From Nocardiopsis potens DSM 45234 (GTDB lineage: Bacteria; Actinomycetota; Actinomycetes; Streptosporangiales; Streptosporangiaceae): a stretch of DNA of 64,000 nucleotides. Position numbers and translations under genes: made by a program. The notes under the pieces were generated by a model, which worked only from the letters and a program-made list of their open reading frames with translations, had not been told where the DNA came from and ran no database searches. Below, one piece after another: positions 2,839 through 62,015 of the stretch (positions within the stretch are counted from its first letter, which is position 1; each line of letters opens with the position of its first letter). Where the stretch lies: positions 62,001 to 126,000 of the forward strand of contig NZ_ANBB01000027.1 of the NCBI RefSeq assembly GCF_000341105.1. Reading direction: 5' to 3'.

Positions 2839-3516
2839 ATGCCGCCGCCCAACCCGCACCGGCGCCGCGCCCTGGCCGACGCCGCCGTCTCGCTGCTGGC
2901 CGACCGCGGAGCGCACGGACTGACCCACCGCTCCGTCGAAGCGCTCGCCGAGGTGCCCGCGGGAACGGCCTCCAACTACTTCCGCAGCCGGGAGGCGCTC
3001 CTCGTCGCCGCCGCGGAGCGCATCGTCGAGCTGCACCTGGCGGACATGGAGGCCGCCACGGCGGCGGAGGGCACGGGGACGGAGGGCGCGGCGGTGGAGC
3101 CGTCCGGGCGGCCCTGGTGGGCGGAGGACGCCGAGGCGTTCGCGGACCTGCTCGCGGAATCGCTGTGGACCGCGGCGACGGCGCTGCGCGAGCGCTACCT
3201 GGCGGTCTTCGAGCTCCAGCTGGAAGCGCGGCGCAGCCCCGCCCTCACCGAGGCCCTGGCCGGACTGGGCGGAGCCGCGGTGCGCGCCAGCGCCGGCCTG
3301 CACACCGCGGCGGGGTCGCCGGTCCCCGAGGCCGCGGTCCCGATCGTGGGCGACCTCTACGCCGGCGTGCTGTTCACCCTCGTCGCACGCCCCGCCGAGA
3401 CCCTGGACCGGGAGGCGGTCCGCGCCCGCGCGGCGGCGATCGTGCACGGGGCCCTCGCCGCCGCCCCGGCCCCCACCGCACCGGACGGAGGGCCCGGCCC
3501 CGAAGGGCGGCCGTAG
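2839..3516 (+). CDS. TetR-family transcriptional regulator
   Basis: The 225-aa product has an N-terminal helix-turn-helix (about residues 5-50: RRRALADAAVSLLADRG, then LTHRSVEALAEVPAGTASNY and FRSREALL), the classic TetR DNA-binding domain ending in a YF motif. The remainder is a helical ligand-binding region with low-complexity Ala/Glu stretches. It likely represses itself and the divergent FAD monooxygenase from the palindromes at 2771-2811. ATG 2839 lies 28 bp past the second palindrome, so repressor binding would block the promoter. Confidence 0.88.
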   Translation: MPPPNPHRRRALADAAVSLLADRGAHGLTHRSVEALAEVPAGTASNYFRSREALLVAAAERIVELHLADMEAATAAEGTGTEGAAVEPSGRPWWAEDAEAFADLLAESLWTAATALRERYLAVFELQLEARRSPALTEALAGLGGAAVRASAGLHTAAGSPVPEAAVPIVGDLYAGVLFTLVARPAETLDREAVRARAAAIVHGALAAAPAPTAPDGGPGPEGRP

Positions 3517-3600
3517 CACCGGGATCCCGGCCGCCCGGTACCGCTCCCGGGAGCACCGGCTCGCGGCACCTCGTCCGGCCGGGCGGCCCGGGAACGGCGG

Positions 3601-3629
3601 CGCCGCCGGCTCCGGGGGAGCCGGCGGCG
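3601..3629. terminator. Bidirectional terminator hairpin
   Basis: A 13-bp perfect stem (CGCCGCCGGCTCC paired with GGAGCCGGCGGCG) encloses a 3-nt loop between the convergent tetR-type (ends 3516) and MFS (ends 3682) genes. There is no U-tract, as is usual in high-GC actinomycetes. Confidence 0.7.
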
Positions 3630-3681
3630 CGAGCGGAAGGCGGTCGGGGCGGAGACCGGGGCGGACGCCCTCCCCGGGCGG

Positions 3682-4983
3682 CTATTCGGCGGAGGCGGGC
3701 ACCTCCCGCCGTTCCCCGTCCCGCCGCCGGCCGCCGGCGGGCTCCCCGGCCTCCTCGGACCCCTCCCGCAGCGGCGCGGGACCGGGGCCGAACAGCCCGA
3801 CGGCCAGGGAGGCGAAGGCCAGGGCGGCGGCGCCCCACAGCAGCGGCATGATGCCGGCCGCTTCGACGGCGGTGCCGCCGGCGAACGCGCCGAGGGCGAT
3901 GGCGGCGGTGAACACGCCGACGTAGAGCCCGGTGACCTGCTCGACCCGGTGCGGGGCGGCGCGGGTCATCCAGATCTGCCCGGCCACCGACACCCCGCCG
4001 TAGGCCAGGCCCCACAGCGCGATGGCGGCCCCGGCGAACACGCCGACCGAGCCGAGCAGGACCAGCAGCACGATCGCGGCCCCGATGCCCCCGGCCAGGA
4101 CCAGCACCGTGGCCCGGGGGCGGCGCGCCGCCAGGGCCCCCGCGGCGAAGTTGCCGGCGAGCCCGAAGAGGCCGTACACCAGCAGCAGGAAGGCGACGCC
4201 CGACGGGGCGAGCCCGCCGTGCTCCTCCAGCACCGGCCGCACGTAGGTGTAGGCGGCGAAGTGCGCGGTGACCAGCGCCGTGACCACGATCAGGCCGGTG
4301 GCCACCGCCGGCGGCAGCGGCGACCGGCCGCCCGCGTCCGCGCCCGCCGCGGGCGCGGACGCGGGGCGGGGCAGCCGGGGGGGCACCGCCACCAGGCCGG
4401 CGGCCAGGACGACCGCGGCCGCGGACAGGGCGCCGAACGCGGCGCGCCAGCCGAAGGCGTCGCCGATGACGGTGCCCAGCGGCACCCCGGCGACCGAGGC
4501 CGCCGCGACGCCGCTGACCGCGAAGGAGACCGCGAGCGCGGCATTGCGCGGCGCGACGAGCCGGGGCGCGACCGCCGCCGCCAGCCCCCACACCGTTCCC
4601 ATCCCGAGGCCGAGGACCACGCGGGCGGCGATCAGCAGGGCGAACCCCTGGGCGAAGGCGGTCAGCGCGTTGCCGGCGGCCAGCACCAGCATCGCCGCCG
4701 CCAGCACGGTCCGCCGGTCGAGCGCGCCGAGGAACCGCGGGACCACGGGCGCGGTGACCGCGGCGACCAGGCCGGTGGCGGTGAGGCTGAACCCCGCCGT
4801 CCCGGAGGAGACGCCCAGGCCCTCGGCCATCGGCGTGAGCACGCCGACCGGCAGCATCTCGGAGGTGACGACGGTGAAGGTGCTCAGGGAGAGGACGGCG
4901 ACCGCGGACCACTGCCGCAGGGTGGTGCGGGCGGTGCGCGCCGTGTCGTTGTCCGCCGCAGAGGGCGGAGCCGTGGAAGTCAT
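3682..4983 (-). CDS. MFS transporter, DHA1-type drug/metabolite exporter
   Basis: The 433-aa protein has about twelve hydrophobic segments, starting with WSAVAVLSLSTFTVVTSEML and including PVGVLTPMAEGLGVS, which resembles motif regions of AraJ/YdhP-like (DHA1) exporters. A long hydrophilic central loop (RLPRPASAPAAGADAGGRS, about residues 195-215) separates the two six-helix halves. ATG 4983 (MTSTAPPSA) was taken because upstream in-frame sequence overlaps the divergent LysR gene. It likely exports a small toxic molecule or sugar by proton antiport under the control of that LysR regulator. Substrate unknown. Confidence 0.85.
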   Translation of the reverse strand: MTSTAPPSAADNDTARTARTTLRQWSAVAVLSLSTFTVVTSEMLPVGVLTPMAEGLGVSSGTAGFSLTATGLVAAVTAPVVPRFLGALDRRTVLAAAMLVLAAGNALTAFAQGFALLIAARVVLGLGMGTVWGLAAAVAPRLVAPRNAALAVSFAVSGVAAASVAGVPLGTVIGDAFGWRAAFGALSAAAVVLAAGLVAVPPRLPRPASAPAAGADAGGRSPLPPAVATGLIVVTALVTAHFAAYTYVRPVLEEHGGLAPSGVAFLLLVYGLFGLAGNFAAGALAARRPRATVLVLAGGIGAAIVLLVLLGSVGVFAGAAIALWGLAYGGVSVAGQIWMTRAAPHRVEQVTGLYVGVFTAAIALGAFAGGTAVEAAGIMPLLWGAAALAFASLAVGLFGPGPAPLREGSEEAGEPAGGRRRDGERREVPASAE

Positions 4984-7731: not shown

Positions 7732-7813
7732 CGATGATCTCGACGTTGCGGCCCTTGAGCCGCCCCGAGGTTTCCAGTGTCCGTTGCAACACCGCACACC
7801 AGAGGACAGGAGG
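7732..7813 (+). repeat. Left terminal inverted repeat of copy 1
   Basis: It starts CGATGATCTCGACGTTGCGG, then passes through GAGGTTTCCAGTGTCCGTTG and CAACACCGCACACCAGAGGA. It matches the reverse complement of 8941-9041 over about 80 bp with roughly 80% identity by eye. A related terminus occurs at 61739-61820. Confidence 0.85.
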
Positions 7814-7819
7814 GGATCG

Positions 7820-8090
7820 GCCGGTCGGGCGGCCGAGGCCGCGGCGCCTCGCGGGGCGGGGGTTCAAGCGGGCGGCGAGGGCGGGGAGGGGGACCGGCTG
7901 GTCGGTCTGGCGCGGCGCCCCGCGGAGTGACGGTTCAGGCAGGCAGCGACGGCAGCGGTGGGGGCGTGGCCGGGCGCCTCACCCGGGCGCGGCGCCCCAC
8001 GGGGTCGGGCTTAAGGCGAGCAGCGAAGGCGGGAGCGGGTTGGGCGCCGCGTTCACCTGCCCGGCGCGTGCTCCCGGCGGGAAGCGGCGG
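7820..8090 (+). repeat. Left array of copy 1, about 3 units, forward orientation
   Basis: The units are recognised by the anchor GGTTCAAGCGGGCGGCGA (variants at about 7861, 7931 and 8008), about 70-77 bp apart, each followed by GC-rich sequence and GCGCGGCGCC. These units are more degenerate than those in copies 2 and 3. Confidence 0.8.
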
Positions 8091-8630
8091 CGCCCCGGCG
8101 GTGGGGGTGGGCCCGCCCGAGCCGAGCAGGGTGGCCTTATCCCCTATGCCGGGTTTGCGGCAGGGATCGGGCGGGAGCGGGGGGCGCCCTGCGCACCGTG
8201 AGAGCACTACGATTACATCTACCAGCGAGTAGTAAGCCCTGAGGCCCCCACCACCCCCTCGCCGGTCACCCAGAGTGGCCAAGCTGGGGCCTCGTGGGAG
8301 AACAAAAGCGGCATTCCGCCCCTGCCTCTACTCTCTCCGGGTTCCGGCCCCCTGACTCCCGGCCTTGCGGGCGGCTCGAACCCCCGATCACCGGCCCGAT
8401 CGAGGCGATCCGGGGCTTCCGGGGGCCGATCCGGGCCGGGATGCGCGCCCGGGAATCACCGGGGTGCTCTCGCGGTGCGCAGGGCACCCCACCCCGCCAT
8501 CACCCTGCGTATTCACCCAGGTGAGGGAGGTGTAGCGGTTTCAAGGGCGGTCGGCCCCGGCGCCCGGGCGACGCGGGCACGGCGATCCCGCCCCCCGGCC
8601 CGCCCCGACCATTCTCGCCCCGCTCTGCCG
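8091..8630 (+). repeat. Core of copy 1
   Basis: About 540 bp closely matching 33394-33932 and, inverted, 46630-47170. It contains an inner inverted repeat (8189-8205 and 8466-8482, 17 bp with one mismatch), a TGCCG-6 nt-CGGCA hairpin near 8147, the block GATTACATCTACCAGCGAGT near 8211, and a conserved right part with GTATTCACCCAGGT. No reading frame shared by all copies with a start and ribosome-binding site was found. It is the most diverged of the three cores. Confidence 0.85.
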
Positions 8631-8940
8631 CGCCGGACCGACCGGCCGGTCCCCGCCGTCGCCGCCAGCCTGAACCCCCGCCCCGTGGGGCCCGTGCCCG
8701 GGCGATCGCCTTCGCCCCGGCCCTGCCTTCGCCGTCGCCGCTCGTCTTGACCTCCGCTCTGCGGGGTGCCGCGCCGGACCGACCGGCCGGTGTCCACCGC
8801 CGCCTTCGCCGCCCGTCTTGACCTGTACCCCGTGGGGTGCCGCGCTCGGGCGATCGCCTTCGCCCCGCCCCTACCGCCGCCGTCGCCGCCCGCTTGGACC
8901 CCCGCCCCGTGGGGTGCCGCGCCCGACCGACCGGCCGGCA
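8630..8940 (-). repeat. Right array of copy 1, about 4 units, reverse orientation
   Basis: The units read in reverse complement relative to the left array, with anchors CTTGAACC-like at about 8667, 8744, 8815 and 8892. GACCGACCGGCCGGT linkers alternate with GGGCGATCGCC linkers, as in the other copies. Confidence 0.8.
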
Positions 8941-9041
8941 CGCCCTCCTGTCCTCTGGTGGCTCCTGTCCTCTGGTGGGCAGTGTTGCAACGGGCACTGG
9001 AAACCACCCGCTCTGCCAGGACCGCAGCGTCGAGATCATCG
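8941..9041 (-). repeat. Right terminal inverted repeat of copy 1
   Basis: Read on the minus strand it begins CGATGATCTCGACGCTGCGG and continues through GTGGTTTCCAGTGCCCGTTG. A short internal duplication of TCCTGTCCTCTGGTGG occurs at about 8947-8978. Its outer end is only 55 bp before the ATG of the next gene. Confidence 0.85.
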
Positions 9042-12475: not shown

Positions 12476-12539
12476 CGATGATCTTGACGTTGCGGGGGAA
12501 TCGGAGCGCTCCGATTCCCCCGCAACGTCAAGATCATCG
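12476..12539. repeat. 64-bp perfect palindrome sharing the termini of copy 1
   Basis: Two 32-nt arms are exact reverse complements with no spacer. Each begins CGATGATCTTGACGTTGCGG, differing at a single base from the first 20 nt of the copy 1 terminal repeat. It sits 17 bp after the PepSY gene stop and could act as a terminator. The match to the element ends suggests it is instead a minimal or ends-only member of the same family. Confidence 0.9.
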
Positions 12540-31158: not shown

Positions 31159-31322
31159 GACGGCAATCTCCTCACTTTTGGCAATGGAATCGTCACTTAT
31201 TGTTGCAGATTTGCGGAGGGGGCGGTCCCGCTACACGGAATCGGCGGCCCGCCCGGCCATGGGGTGCAGGGCGGCGCGGGGGCGGCTCCGCCGCTCTCCC
31301 GGGCGGGCCTAGGGTGGCGAGA

Positions 31323-32861
31323 GTGCCGATATCCCAGACCTTCCCGTTCCTTGCCCCCTGTTCCCCCCGTTCCCCGCGCCCGCCGCGCACCGGGCGCCCG
31401 GCCGCCGCCGCGTGCGCCGCGCTCCTCGCCGCCGCGACCGTTCTGCCCGGTGCGCCGGCCGCCTCGGCCGCCGACGAGGCGAAGGCGCTCCCCTCCGCGA
31501 TCGACGCCCTCGTACAGGAGTACCGGGACGCCGCCGGCGTGCCCGGTGTCGCGGTGGCCGTCACCCGGGGCGCGGAGACCGTGCACGCGGCCGGCTACGG
31601 CACCACCCCCGTCGGCGACCCCGTCACCGCGGACACCCCGATGGCGATGGCCTCGGTCAGCAAGTCCTTCACCGCGGCGGCGGTGCTGCAACTGGTCGAG
31701 GCCGGCGAGGTCGACCTCGACGAGCCGGTCCGCACCTACCTGCCCGAGTTCGAGATGGCCGACCCGCGCGCCGAGCGGATCACCGTGCTCCAGCTCCTCG
31801 ACCAGACCTCGGGCATGTCCGACACGACCTTCCCCGCCTTCACCCGGGAGCAGCCCGAGGACCTGCGCGAAGCGGTGGCGAGCATGCGCACCGGGCGGCT
31901 GGCCGCCGACCCGGGGGAGCGGCACGAGTACCACAACCCCAACACGCAGGTCGCCGCGCGCCTGGTCGAGGCGGTCGCGGGCAGGCCGTTCGCCGAGCAG
32001 CTGCGGGCGGGGGTCTTCGAACCGCTCGGCATGGAGAACAGCACCACCATCGACACCGACCGGGACCTGCCGCCGAGCGCGCACGGGCACCTCAAGGCCT
32101 TCGGGGCGCCGGTCGCGGCCCCCGAGCCCCGCGCCTTCGGCAACGGCTCCGGCGGCGTGATCAGCACCGCCGACGACATGGCGGCCTGGCTGATCGCGCA
32201 GAACAACGGGGGGAAGGGGGCCGGCGGCGCCCGGATCGCCTCGGCGGAGAGCATCGAGCGGATGCACACCCCCTCGCCGAACTCCGGCTCCTACGCGCTG
32301 GGCTGGTCGGTCGGGGAGACCCCGTCGGGGGCACCGGTGATCGCGCACGGCGGGGACCTGTTCACCTCGACCGCCTACCAGGCGCTGCTGCCCGAGTCCG
32401 GCCACGGCGTCGCGGTGATGGCCAACACCGGCATGGCCTACGGGGACGCCCAGGCCATCGCCGACGCGCTGATCACGCTGATCGAGGAGGAGGAGGCGCC
32501 CGCGCCGCCGTCGCAGGCCGCGCTCGTCTGGACCGACGTGCTGCTCACCGCCCTGGCCGCCGGCGCCGCCGCGGCGGCCTGGTTCGGCGCGCGGCGCGCA
32601 CCCCGCTGGGCGCGCCTCCGGGCGGGCAGGCCGCTCGGAGCGGCGCTGCGGCTGCTGCCGCTGGCCCTGCCCCCGCTGCTCTTCGCCGAGATCCACCGGG
32701 TCGTCGGCTTCCTCTTCCGGGGCCGCGACGTGGCCTGGATCCAGGTCTCCTACCTCTACCCCTCGTTCATGCTGCTGCTCGGCGCGGCGGCACTGGCCTG
32801 CGCGGTCGTCGCCGCCGCCCGCATCGCCTCCCTGGTCCGGAACCGGGCGCGGCGGGACTGA
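31323..32861 (+). CDS. Class C beta-lactamase-fold serine hydrolase with membrane tail
   Basis: GTG 31323 (VPISQTFPFLAP) gives 512 aa with an N-terminal signal region (AAACAALLAAATVLPGAPAA). The hydrolase domain has SVSK (Ser111-Lys114), YHN (Tyr203-Asn205) and HGG (His342), the catalytic motifs of PF00144 esterases and D-Ala-D-Ala peptidases. After about residue 395, three hydrophobic segments form a membrane anchor. The active site would face the outside, suggesting a cell-wall or ester/peptide hydrolase. A true beta-lactamase role is not implied. A hairpin follows at 32866. Confidence 0.87.
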   Translation: MPISQTFPFLAPCSPRSPRPPRTGRPAAAACAALLAAATVLPGAPAASAADEAKALPSAIDALVQEYRDAAGVPGVAVAVTRGAETVHAAGYGTTPVGDPVTADTPMAMASVSKSFTAAAVLQLVEAGEVDLDEPVRTYLPEFEMADPRAERITVLQLLDQTSGMSDTTFPAFTREQPEDLREAVASMRTGRLAADPGERHEYHNPNTQVAARLVEAVAGRPFAEQLRAGVFEPLGMENSTTIDTDRDLPPSAHGHLKAFGAPVAAPEPRAFGNGSGGVISTADDMAAWLIAQNNGGKGAGGARIASAESIERMHTPSPNSGSYALGWSVGETPSGAPVIAHGGDLFTSTAYQALLPESGHGVAVMANTGMAYGDAQAIADALITLIEEEEAPAPPSQAALVWTDVLLTALAAGAAAAAWFGARRAPRWARLRAGRPLGAALRLLPLALPPLLFAEIHRVVGFLFRGRDVAWIQVSYLYPSFMLLLGAAALACAVVAAARIASLVRNRARRD

Positions 32862-32934: not shown

Positions 32935-33393
32935 CCACCTCACCCGGGTGGGGAGCGAGAGTTCAAGCGGGCGGCGACGGCAGCGGTAGGGGCGGGGTTG
33001 GGCGCCTCACCCGGGCGCGGCGCCTCGCGGGGCGGGGGTTCAGACCGGCGGCGAGGGCGGGAGGGAGGCGTGCCGGCCGGTCGGTTCGGCGCGGGGCCTC
33101 GCGGAGTGGAGGTTCAGGCGGGCGGCGACGGCCAAGGAGGGGCCGAGGTCCGGCGCCTCACCCGGGCGCGGCGTCTCACGGGGCGAGGGTTCAAACCGGC
33201 GGCGACGGCGCAGGTAGGAACCGGGCCAGGCGCCCCACCCGGGCGCGGCGCCTCGCGGAGCGAAGGTTCAAGCGGGCGGCGAGGGCGGGAGGGGGACCGG
33301 CCGGTCGGTCGGCGCGGCGCCCCACGGAGCGGAGGTTCAAACGGGCGGCGACGGCAGCGGTGGGGCGGGGCGGAGGCGGCCGCCCGGGCGCGG
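32935..33393 (+). repeat. Left array of copy 2, six units, forward orientation
   Basis: GGTTCAAGCGGGCGGCGA-type anchors occur at about 32961, 33039, 33112, 33189, 33266 and 33335 (spacing 78, 73, 77, 77, 69 bp). Each unit ends in GCGCGGCGCC. Two linker types are seen: GACCGGCCGGTCGGTC and a longer GC-rich one ending GCCTCACCCGG. Confidence 0.88.
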
Positions 33394-33932
33394 CGCCCCG
33401 GCGGTGCGGGTGGGCCCGCCCGAGCCGAGCAGAGTGGCCTTATCCCCTATGCCGGGTTCGCGGCAGGGAACAGGCAGGGGCGGGGGCGGCCTGCGCACCG
33501 CGAGAGCACCCCGATTACATCTACCAGCGAGTAGTAGCCCCCAGGCCCCCACCACCCCCTCCCCGGTCACCCAGAGTGGCCAAAGCGGGGCCTCTCGGGA
33601 GGGCAAAAGCGACATCTCGCCCTCACTCCTGCCTCTCCTGGGTTTCGGCCCCCTGCATCCCGGCCTTGCGGGCGGCTCGAACCCCTCACCACCGGCCCGA
33701 CCGAGGCGATCCGGGCCTCTCGGGGGCCGATCCGGCCCAGGGTGCGCGCCCGGGAATCACCGGGGGGCTCTCGCGGTGCGCAGGGCGCCCCACCCCACCA
33801 TCACCGTGGGTATTCACCCAGGTCAGAGAGGTGCAGCGGTTTCAGAGGCGGCCGGCCCCGGCGCCCGGGCGGCGCGGGCACGGCCACCCCGCCACCCCGG
33901 CCCGCCCCGACCACTACCGCCCTGCTCTGCCG
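33394..33932 (+). repeat. Core of copy 2
   Basis: The 539-bp core contains an exact 17-bp inner inverted repeat (33491-33507 and 33767-33783) spanning 293 nt, a TGCCG-6-CGGCA hairpin near 33450, ATCTACCAGCGAGTAGTAG near 33519, and GGGTATTCACCCAGGT near 33811. It differs from copy 3 at only scattered positions plus one short replaced segment near its outer left end. No protein-coding frame is supported. Confidence 0.88.
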
Positions 33933-34400
33933 CACCCGACCGACCGGCCGGTCCCCACCGCCGCCCTCGCCGCCCGCTTGAACCCTCACCCCGTGAGGCG
34001 CCGCGCCCGGGCGATCGCCTCCGCCCCGCCCTCACCGCTTCCGTCGCCGCCCGCTTGAACCTGCACTCCGTGGGGCGCCGCGCCCGACCGACCGGCCGGT
34101 CCCCACCGCCGCCCTCGCTGCCCGCTTGAACCCCGACCTCGTGAGATGCCGCGCCCGGGTGGGGCGCCGGGCCCTGTCCCTGCCTACGCCGTCGCTGCTG
34201 TCTTGGCCTTCGCTCCGCGAGGCGCCGCGCCTGACCGACCGGCCGGTCCTCCCCTCGCCCTCGCTGCCCGCTTGAACCCCGACCCCGTGAGGCGCCGCGC
34301 CCGGGCGATCGCCTCCGCCCCGCCCCCACCTGCGCCGTCGCCGCCCGCTTGAACCTGCACTCCGCGACGTGCCGCGCTTGGGCGACCGCCTTCACCCTGG
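33933..34400 (-). repeat. Right array of copy 2, six units, reverse orientation
   Basis: Reverse-oriented anchors (CGCTTGAACC type) at about 33975, 34053, 34125, 34201, 34271 and 34348. GACCGACCGGCCGGTC linkers alternate with GGGCGATCGCC linkers. The array ends about 110 bp before the promoter of the hydroxyproline operon. Confidence 0.88.
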
Positions 34401-45879: not shown

Positions 45880-46629
45880 GCTCTGCCGGGGCGCGGCGCC
45901 CCACGGAGCGAGGGGGCAAACGGGCAGCGAAGGCAGGAGGAGGGACCGGCTGGTCGGTCCGGCGCGGCGCCCCACGGGGCGAAGGTCCGAGCAGCGGCGA
46001 CGGCGTAGGCAGGGGCAGGGCCCGGCGCCCCACCCGGGCGCGGCATCTCACGGGGTCGGGGTTAAGGCGGGCGGCGAGGGCGGCGGTGGGGACCGGCTGG
46101 TCGGTCGGGCGCGGCGCCCCACGGAGTGCAGGTTCAAGCAGGCGGCGACGGAAGCGGTGAGGGCGGGGCGGAGGCGATCGCCCGGGTGTCGGGCCCCACA
46201 GGGTGAGGGTTCAAACGGGCGGCGAGGGCGGCGGTAGAGCCGGGGTACAGGAGTCGCCCGGGCGCGGCGCCTCACGGGGTGAGGGTCCAAGCGGGCGGCG
46301 AGGGTGGCGGTGGGGACCGGCTGGTCGGTCGGGTGCGGCGCCTCGCGAAGCGGGGGTCAAGACGGGCGGCGACGGCGCGGGTGGGGGCGGGGCGGAGGCG
46401 GTCGCCCGGGCGCGGTGCCTCGCGGAGTGACGGTTCAGGCGGGCGGCGAGGGTGGGTGGGCGTGCCGGCTGGTCGGTCGGGCGCGGCGCCCCACGGAGTG
46501 CAGGTTCAAGCGGGCGGCGACGGCGCAGGTGGGGGCGGGGCGGAGGCGGTCGCCCGGGCGCGGCGCCTCACGGGGTGAGGGGCCAAGCGGGCGGCGAGGG
46601 CGGCGGTGGGGACCGGCCGGTCGGTCGGG
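45880..46629 (+). repeat. Ten-unit array of copy 3 with alternating A and B units
   Basis: Anchors (GGTTCAAGCGGGCGGCGA variants) occur at about 45916, 45984, 46060, 46131, 46208, 46284, 46355, 46432, 46503 and 46580. Spacings alternate mostly between about 70-72 and 76-78 bp. B units carry GACCGGCTGGTCGGTCGGG. A units carry GGCGGAGGCGGTCGCCCGGG. Together they form a higher-order period of about 148 bp. Confidence 0.88.
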
Positions 46630-47170
46630 TGCGGCAGAGCAGGGCGGGAGTGGTCGGGGCGGGCCGGGGTGGCGGGGTGGCCGTGCCCGCGCCGCCCGGG
46701 CGGCGCGGCCGGCCGCCTCTGAAACCGCTGCACCTCTCTGACCTGGGTGAATACCCACGGTGATGGTGGGGTGGGGCGCCCTGCGCACCGCGAGAGCACC
46801 CCGGTGATTCCCGGGCGCGCACCCTGGGCCGGATCGGCCCCCGAGAGGCCCGGATCGCCTCGGTCGGGCCGGTGGTGAGGGGTTCGAGCCGCCCGCAAGG
46901 CCGGGATGCAGGGGGCCGGAACTCGGGCAGGGGCGGCGCGGGGGCGAGATGTCGCTTTTGCCCTCCCGAGAGGCCCCGCTTTGGCCACTCTGGGTGATCG
47001 GTGAGGGGGTGGTGGGAGCCTCGGGGGCTACTACTCGCTGGTAGATGTAATCGGGGTGCTCTCGCGGTGCGCAGGCCGCCCCCACTTCCGCCCGTTCCCC
47101 GCCGCGAACCCGGCATAGGGGATAAGGCCCCCTGGTTGCTGCGGGCAGGCCCACCCGCACCGCCGGGGCG
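46630..47170 (-). repeat. Core of copy 3 (inverted)
   Basis: The 541-bp core carries the inner inverted repeat as a perfect 23-bp pair (46781-46803 and 47052-47074), overall span 294 nt, the same span as in copies 1 and 2. CTACTACTCGCTGGTAGATG lies at about 47029-47048. The identity to copy 2 is high throughout the middle, and the segment near 47125-47150 is replaced. Confidence 0.88.
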
Positions 47171-47603
47171 CCGCGCCCGGGTGAGGCCTGCGCCCCGGCC
47201 CTACCCTCGCCGTCGCCGCCGGTTTGAGCCTTCGCCCCGTGGGGCGCCGCGCCGAACCGACCGGCCGGTCCCCACCGCCGCCGTCGCCGCCCGTTTGAAC
47301 CTCCGCTCTGCGGGGCGCCGCGCCCGGGTGGGGCGCCTGGCCTGGTTCCTACCTGCGCCGTCGCTGCCTGTCTGGACCTTCGCTCCGTGGGGCGCCGCGC
47401 TCGGGTGGGGCCTGCGCCCCGGCCCTACCCTCGCCGTCGCCGCCGGTTTGGGCCTCCGCCCGGTGGGGCGCCGCGCCGAACCGACCGGCCGGCCCCCCTC
47501 CTCGCCGTCGCCGCCCGCTTGAACCTTCGCTCCGTGGGGTGCCGCACCCGGGTGAGGCGCCCGGCCCCGCCCCTTCCTGGGCCGTCGCCGTTGGCTTGAA
47601 CCT
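47171..47603 (-). repeat. Six-unit right array of copy 3
   Basis: Anchors (TTGAACCTTCGCTCCGTGGG type) at about 47222, 47292, 47370, 47445, 47518 and 47594. The orientation is opposite to the ten-unit array. The last anchor lies immediately beside the stop codon (47604) of the adjacent AraC gene, whose final codons resemble array sequence. Confidence 0.85.
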
Positions 47604-48368
47604 TCACCCTGTGGGGGGTCGTGTGGCTCCGAGGCCAGGTCGGGTGGCGGCTGTGCGTTCGGCGAGGAGGGCGGCGGGGGTGAGGCCGGACATGCGGCGG
47701 ACCTCTCGGGTCAGGTGCGGCTGGTCGGCGTAGCCGGCGGTGAGGGCCAGGTCGGCAAGGGGGCGGCCGGGGTCGGCGTCGGCGGCGCGCAGGAACCGCT
47801 GCAGTCGGGCGGTGCGCTGCAGGGCGCGGGGGCCCAGGCCGGTGTGGTCGAGCAGGAGCCGGCGGAGCTGGCGCTCGGACAGCCCGACGGCGCGGGCGGC
47901 GCCGGCCGCGGTGGCGCCGGGCTCGGACAGGGCGCGCAGCGCGGCGCGCACCCGCGGATCGGGTGGGGCGGCGGGCAGGGCGGGGCGGGCGCCGGACCAG
48001 ATCTGTTCGGTGAGGCGTTCGGCGTCGGGGCGGGGCAGCAGTGCGTCCAGTGGCAGGTCGGCGTCGCGGACCAGGTGGGCGGGGAGGCCCAGGGCGGGGC
48101 CGATGGCGGAGGTGCGCAGCCGCAGGCCGCGGATGCGGGTGTGCGGGGCCAGCAGCGGCACGGCGGGGTCGGCGGTCGGGCCGGCCAGGCGCGCGGCCCC
48201 GCCGTCGGTGACGATGAGGTCGGCGCAGGCGTCCGGGAGGACCCGCTGGGGGTGGCCGCCGGGGGCGGCGCCGATGCGCTGCTCCCGCCGGCAGGCGATG
48301 AGCGGGTCGGGGCGGCCGGGGCGGTGCTCGGTGTAGACCGAGGCGGGCCCGGTGTCCGCTTCGTTCAA
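47604..48368 (-). CDS. AraC-family transcriptional regulator
   Basis: The 254-aa product has an N-terminal region typical of DUF6597-type sensing domains (CRREQRIGAAPGGHPQRVLP, DACADLIVTDGG, GLRLRTSAIGPALGLP). A C-terminal AraC HTH follows (GAARAVGLSERQLRRLLLDH, LADLALTAGYADQPHLTREV, RRMSGLTPAALL). The start is probably TTG 48368, as no in-frame ATG/GTG fits; this is uncertain. The last residues and the stop lie in the edge of repeat copy 3. It is divergent from the VOC gene, with a 34-bp gap. Confidence 0.82.
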   Translation of the reverse strand: MNEADTGPASVYTEHRPGRPDPLIACRREQRIGAAPGGHPQRVLPDACADLIVTDGGAARLAGPTADPAVPLLAPHTRIRGLRLRTSAIGPALGLPAHLVRDADLPLDALLPRPDAERLTEQIWSGARPALPAAPPDPRVRAALRALSEPGATAAGAARAVGLSERQLRRLLLDHTGLGPRALQRTARLQRFLRAADADPGRPLADLALTAGYADQPHLTREVRRMSGLTPAALLAERTAATRPGLGATRPPTG

Positions 48369-61726: not shown

Positions 61727-62015
61727 GCCCGCCCCAGGCCGTTGATCTCGGCGTTGTCGCTCTCTGAGGCGCCCCGAGGTTTCCGGTGTCCGCCGCAACA
61801 CCGCACACCAAGAGAAGGGAAGGGGCGACGCCGGCAGCAGCGAGGACAGGGCGGACACCCCACCCGAGCGCGGCGCCCCACGGAGCGGGGGTTCAAGCGG
61901 GCGGCGAGGGCAGGGAGGGGACCGGCCAGTCGGTCGGGCGCGGCGCCCCACGGGGTCGGGGTTCAAGCAGGCAGCGAAGGCGGCGGTGGGAGCCGACTGG
62001 TCGGTCCGGCGCGGA
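61727..62015 (+). mobile_element. Truncated palindromic array element, fragment 4
   Basis: It starts with the same GCCCCAGG flank and terminus as copy 1, with a few base changes (about 61739: CGTTGATCTCGGCG, then GAGGTTTCCGGTGTCCGCCG and CAACACCGCACACCA). Two forward units follow (anchors about 61890 and 61962). There is no core and no right end. It shows that the terminus and array are linked units of the same family. Confidence 0.8.

Follow-up and report, generated by a model that had tools for sequence, protein, structure and literature searches.

Array elements in the Nocardiopsis potens window

We analyzed a 64,000-nt stretch of the Nocardiopsis potens DSM 45234 genome (assembly GCF_000341105.1, contig NZ_ANBB01000027.1, positions 62,001–126,000; hereafter the window). 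The window has a G+C content of 75.5% and belongs to a 6.91-Mb draft genome (G000). It holds three intergenic blocks in which a common core is flanked by tandem repeat units, together with a core-less fragment and a free-standing 64-bp palindrome. An earlier reading of the sequence (the initial annotation) had grouped the blocks into one family, with units that change orientation at the core and number about 37. Using a profile hidden Markov model (HMM) built from 264 units and run with nhmmer at a threshold of E ≤ 1e-2, we recovered exactly 37 units of ~70–78 bp, distributed between left and right arrays as 3+4, 6+6, and 10+6, plus 2 in the fragment; the same arrays were recovered by Tandem Repeats Finder (TRF). 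Left arrays always lie on the plus strand and right arrays on the minus strand, with the flip at the core in all three blocks, and other mapped copies keep this array order independently of the orientation of their core. The features, in window coordinates, are as follows.

7732–9041, no strand: block 1, complete element end to end, 1,310 bp, with inverted CGATGATCTCGACG at both termini; homology to the congener G004 is interrupted between 7713 and 9048
7732–7811, plus: block 1 left terminal repeat, end A (half palindrome followed by GGTTTCCAGTGTCCGTTGCAACACC...)
7839–8054, plus: block 1 left array, 3 units (nhmmer)
8133–8552, plus: block 1 core, conserved part, 86.7% identity to the block 2 core
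8635–8928, minus: block 1 right array, 4 units (HMM)
8945–9041, minus: block 1 right terminal repeat, end A, with a 17-bp duplication
12476–12539, no strand: free-standing 64-bp perfect palindrome, 0 arm mismatches, first 20 bp identical to large-element ends at other loci
32937–33365, plus: block 2 left array, 6 units (HMM)
33366–33937, plus: block 2 core, best-conserved part 33436–33853
33483–33513, plus: core internal inverted repeat, left arm, 31 bp, 93.5% self-match to 33761–33791
33761–33791, minus: core internal inverted repeat, right arm, self-match to the left arm
33938–34380, minus: block 2 right array, 6 units (HMM); outer terminal repeat not recognized
45884–46625, plus: block 3 left array, 10 units (HMM)
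46711–47129, minus: block 3 core, reverse orientation, 95% identical to the block 2 core
47188–47618, minus: block 3 right array, 6 units (HMM)
61740–62014, plus: core-less fragment (cut-down element), left terminal repeat (CGTTGATCTCGG...) and 2 units; G004 homology stops at 61733, beside the predicted left end

The common core was likewise upheld. Between the arrays it measures ~570 bp, of which ~420 bp can be aligned well in all copies, and the block 2 core is 95% identical to that of block 3 and 87% identical to that of block 1. Block 3 as a whole is a reversed copy of block 2, with 87% identity across 1,409 bp. Outer terminal repeats, which the initial annotation had not named, are also present in block 1 (7732–9041) and in the fragment (from 61740, with its 2 plus-strand units at 61865–62007). 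Block 1 also carries a perfect 17-bp direct duplication, CTCCTGTCCTCTGGTGG (8945–8978), within its terminal repeat on the right.

The core is non-coding: of 274 indels among copies just 10 have a length divisible by 3, and the sequence lacks a 3-base periodicity. A coding origin was ruled out, given that the other 264 indels break the frame and that no frame stays open across all copies.

Copy number and distribution

Copy counts were derived from pattern searches. A 27-bp core pattern matches the N. potens genome 125 times (61 forward, 64 reverse), and a unit pattern matches it 742 times; the reversed core control and the unit control gave 0 matches each, which excludes chance. By our estimate, ~125 copies of this 1.3–1.7-kb element amount to about 2% of the genome. 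Many N. potens contigs (C1, C14, C46, C48, C71, C79, C98, C99, and others) start or stop at a core, the elements marking break points of the draft assembly; the true copy number may therefore deviate from 125, and some copies may have been counted twice.

In a genus sample of six Nocardiopsis genomes, only N. potens and G004, a near-complete congener assembled in 3 contigs (7.4 Mb), carry the family. In G004 the unit motif matches 280 times, and the main contig carries at least 37 elements. Neither core nor units were found in the other four Nocardiopsis genomes sampled, and scoring of only the best seeds per genome revealed no further full-length core among 343 genomes at the family level. 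Weak matches in the latter are only 23–73 bp long and were dismissed as chance. A 22-base core motif has no exact match in GTDB release r220, from which the genome of the window or very near genomes may have been left out. An origin from a mobile vector was also rejected, as no plasmid or phage record matches and matches in viral contigs are isolated and 17–22 bp long.

Mean core identity is 85% within N. potens and 70% within G004, where the cores divide into several old subfamilies, of which some include very recent members. A recent G004 pair is 96% identical across 1,299 bp, although its two members lie 65 kb apart between unrelated flanks.

Termini and the free 64-bp palindrome

In the better-preserved copies, ~55-bp terminal inverted repeats bound the arrays, and their outer ~33 bp constitute one half of the 64-bp palindrome that also occurs free. 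Going inward, the half palindrome (CGATGATCTTGACGTTGCGGCCCTATCAGAGC) comes first and is followed by GGTTTCCAGTGTCCGTTGCAACACC in end A or by TTGTCGTCAAGTGGCCGTTGCAACG in end B, after which comes the array. Paired ends of the family read CGATGATCTTGACG or CGTTGATCTCGGG. In addition to its copy in the window, the free palindrome is found at loci L004, L055, L056, L065, and L069. At locus L078 of G004 there is a ~74-bp form that retains much of end A plus the final ~14 bp of the opposite end; on its sequence it reads as a putative internal-deletion derivative of the element.

The two ends of one element are more alike than ends taken from different elements (0.75 versus 0.69, permutation p = 0.0016). 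Both ends could be typed in 13 N. potens elements and, relative to the core, are B/A in 7, A/B in 4, A/A in 2, and B/B in 0. A and B thus occupy opposite sides in 11 of the 13, with the core running B-to-A in 7 and A-to-B in 4, and this mixture means that in a sizeable share of copies the core has flipped with respect to the ends. Similarity among units, compared across both arms, is slightly higher within one element than between elements (0.627 versus 0.567 in N. potens).

A variant of the palindrome, CGTTGATCTCGGGAAA..., is represented by 425 arms in N. endophytica (G003), 124 in G002 (probably N. suaedae), and 105 in N. halophila (G005), and by just 1 match each in N. potens and G004. In N. 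endophytica it forms a high-copy extragenic palindrome, often within 20–60 bp of a stop codon, for which we found no published description.

Orthologous sites

The match to G004 is lost no more than ~20 bp from the predicted ends of both block 1 and the fragment; between the two block 1 breakpoints (7713 and 9048) G004 has instead a gene that reads as a transporter, and at the fragment site it lacks palindrome and element alike. The G002 counterparts of two elements on contig C37 of N. potens are intergenic gaps, one of 141 bp and one of 98 bp; the 141-bp gap, orthologous to a filled site, contains a free 64-bp palindrome. The block 3 site is filled in both N. potens and G004, with cores 62% identical between flanks that are ~90–91% identical.

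One orthologous pair of elements, L071 in N. potens and L077 in G004, has cores 93% identical and a common ISL3-type insertion sequence (IS; 93–95% identical). Because the same IS resides in the same element of both species, elements also persist by vertical inheritance. In L071 (~3010–4390) and in L077 the IS sits at the core edge; its transposase reads as ISL3-type, in a frame that looks degraded, and is followed in both by a short DinB-like-looking open reading frame. The ISL3-type transposase was rejected as the enzyme of the element itself, as this pair is the only one to have it and the insertion apparently has its own IS ends.

Mode of spread

The three leading readings share as common ground a dispersed palindrome-ended array element, of which we are much surer than of the route by which it moves. 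We favor, with a probability of about one half, the reading that the family is a non-autonomous foldback-type mobile element of Nocardiopsis whose outer ends are part of the element, with dispersal by transposition, recombination among arrays, or both. The options raised in the initial annotation included a mobile element, and this fits best: it draws support from the copy number, the unoccupied orthologous sites, the recent dispersed copies, and the termini held in common with the smaller palindrome. Transposition would be the main route, with a transposase acting in trans on the common outer ends and thereby spreading both the large element and the 64-bp palindrome, the latter being MITE-like (miniature inverted-repeat transposable element) and composed of two fused outer ~33-bp halves. 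Insertions would go mostly into the space just 3′ of genes. Unequal recombination would then expand or shrink the number of units, and pairing of inverted arrays, within or between copies, could flip the core and copy it from site to site.

Several observations weigh against this reading. No transposase gene bounded by element ends occurs in the loci read. No consistent target-site duplication was seen at the flanks, which are mostly too diverged. The inner-end motif is recognizable in just 22 of 52 N. potens elements and 1 of 17 G004 elements. In the recent G004 pair, identity stops within the arrays rather than at the outer ends, which recombination explains equally well, and the sequences at the block 3 site would be accounted for either by core replacement or by two separate hits. 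Candidates for an autonomous parent, sought among single-arm or inner-end matches outside arrays (L078, L079, and loci in N. endophytica and N. halophila), turned out to be palindromes, the short form, or chance.

We tentatively entertain, as possible but hardly probable, a special role of the arrays as recombination landing pads, the conserved core being flipped in place and copied between sites while the arrays stay. If true, the family would be a bacterial class of invertible foldback elements working as a mobile system on two levels, one formed by the palindrome-ended arrays and the other by a core that can be exchanged; we found no such system described in bacteria.

If the family spread mainly by ectopic gene conversion or array recombination at old sites, and not by transposition, the outer halves would be relics of an older palindromic repeat at which arrays grew. 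This would account for recent G004 copies that are alike in core and arrays with identity ending inside the arrays, for the different core subfamilies that block 3 and its G004 ortholog hold at one site, for the slight excess of unit similarity within elements on both sides, and for the failure to find target duplications. Conversion of arrays alone, however, seeds no new sites, and the unoccupied orthologous sites with their short intergenic gaps, together with the end of G004 homology beside the predicted terminus of the fragment, lead us to consider the idea rather unlikely. We are similarly doubtful, and regard it as unlikely, that the large element is an IS-like unit targeting the dyad center of pre-existing 64-bp palindromes, in which case the outer ~33 bp would be target rather than element. 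Ends A and B do start at the palindrome center (between GAGC and GCTC), the halves at one locus are alike, G002 has a free palindrome at a site that is filled in N. potens, and REP sequences, reported as IS targets (PMC1525189), provide a precedent; yet the ~74-bp form at L078 reads as an internal-deletion derivative, and palindrome and element are both missing from G004 at the fragment site.

Tests of host role, RNA structure, and chromosome organization

Gene calls were heuristic. Elements lie mostly downstream of genes: 17 of 39 element-containing gaps are convergent, compared with 22 of 108 background gaps (p = 0.010), and 4 of 39 are divergent, compared with 28 of 108 (p = 0.044). This placement on the 3′ side fits tolerated insertion and a role at gene 3′ ends alike. 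Elements kept as terminators, insulators, or mRNA 3′ stabilizers would explain their position after stop codons, the convergent excess and divergent deficit, and the location of many 64-bp palindromes within about 20–60 bp of a stop codon. Orthologous sites without an element occur in sister species, even in G004, however, and avoidance of promoters is expected for any tolerated insertion, quite apart from the heuristic nature of the gene calls; we thus hold such a role to be improbable, and the element presumably has no host function.

The initial annotation had also considered the template of a structured RNA, which gained no support beyond the single inverted repeat in the core. Single sequences fold moderately better than shuffles (z = −3.3 for the minus strand and −2.7 for the plus strand), and the 31-bp inverted repeat shows some compensatory changes. 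Against this, Rfam yields 0 core matches at the gathering threshold, and the consensus structure is otherwise weak: for 71 sequences the consensus fold reaches −26.9 kcal/mol with a covariation term of −1.87, compared with −220 for one sequence alone. A hairpin proposed within the unit (CCTCAC-GGG-GTGAGG) was discarded, as it shows little excess pairing over independence. A conserved structured RNA in the core is accordingly very improbable.

Least probable of all is the remaining suggestion of that annotation, a DNA-architecture or segregation site, for which we found no support apart from the many copies across the chromosome. The four other congeners sampled lack the elements, and in G004 their spacing falls in the random range (coefficient of variation 0.99; random range 0.73–1.29) and their positions are uniform (Kolmogorov–Smirnov p = 0.70). 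Regular spacing, apparent by eye on some N. potens contigs, was thus dropped as an architecture signal. With replication direction deduced from the position of dnaA, G004 cores divide 15:12 between the two orientations with respect to the replication fork (p = 0.70), and with no bias of this kind a KOPS-like polar segregation motif was rejected.

Relation to known systems

The initial annotation knew of no named element with this plan. For bacteria that statement holds as far as we searched, as no bacterial foldback element was found in the literature covered (open-licence papers only), but in general it does not, because the plan is that of the eukaryotic Foldback elements (Drosophila FB; Tetris, PMC4079207; Galileo, PMC3573991), with long terminal inverted repeats built of tandem repeats. 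Foldback copies have a middle domain and no transposase gene, and the non-coding core agrees with this. In Tetris of Drosophila virilis, each inverted end is made up of tandem repeats of ~220 bp together with a flanking and an inner domain, and the two ends enclose a non-coding middle domain; its outer ends are common to the MITE DAIBAM (PMC4079207), just as the termini here are half of the 64-bp palindrome. The Nocardiopsis element differs in its bacterial host with 75% GC, its 70–78-bp rather than ~220-bp units, its conserved rather than variable middle, and the absence of a detected target duplication. By analogy it may work like a Foldback element; we claim neither descent nor a sequence relation. 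The Foldback plan is known in animals and plants, and its occurrence in bacteria appears to be new as far as searched. With ~125 copies and a free miniature form of its ends in a genetically simple host, the family makes it possible to test directly how inverted ends built of repeats originate and expand.

The nearest bacterial case that we found is BrickBuilt, a MITE of Porphyromonas gingivalis, together with MITE464/PgRS of that species. Direct repeats of 23 or 41 nt stand there in tandem, the ends resemble those of IS5-family elements, and BrickBuilt has 19 copies (PMC4596501). Like the present family they are intergenic and non-autonomous, with short terminal repeats and an internal tandem array. 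In BrickBuilt, however, the direct repeats of the array all point the same way and the ends resemble GAGACCTTTGCA, whereas the N. potens elements number ~125 and have two arrays opposed around a core and ends CGATGATCTTGACG. Bacterial MITEs in general (PMC10969869) are non-coding, multi-copy, and intergenic with terminal inverted repeats, as are both our palindromes and the large elements, but the large element is much longer and has inverted arrays and a conserved core. The free palindrome is comparable in abundance and intergenic location to REP (repetitive extragenic palindromic) sequences and REPINs; REPs, however, are 20–40-bp palindromes tagged GTAG or CGTC (PMC3733652, PMC3116915), whereas the palindrome here is 64 bp, untagged, and has ends CGATGATC/CGTTGATC. 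An insertion sequence was rejected, as core and arrays encode no transposase and the sole transposase inside an element belongs to the separate ISL3-type IS.

A gene next to block 2

A beta-lactamase-family gene (PF00144) at 31314–32861 adjoins block 2. At the corresponding locus the syntenic gap in G002 is too short to hold this gene, and G004 has no matching sequence there, so the gene and the block 2 element differ together between species.
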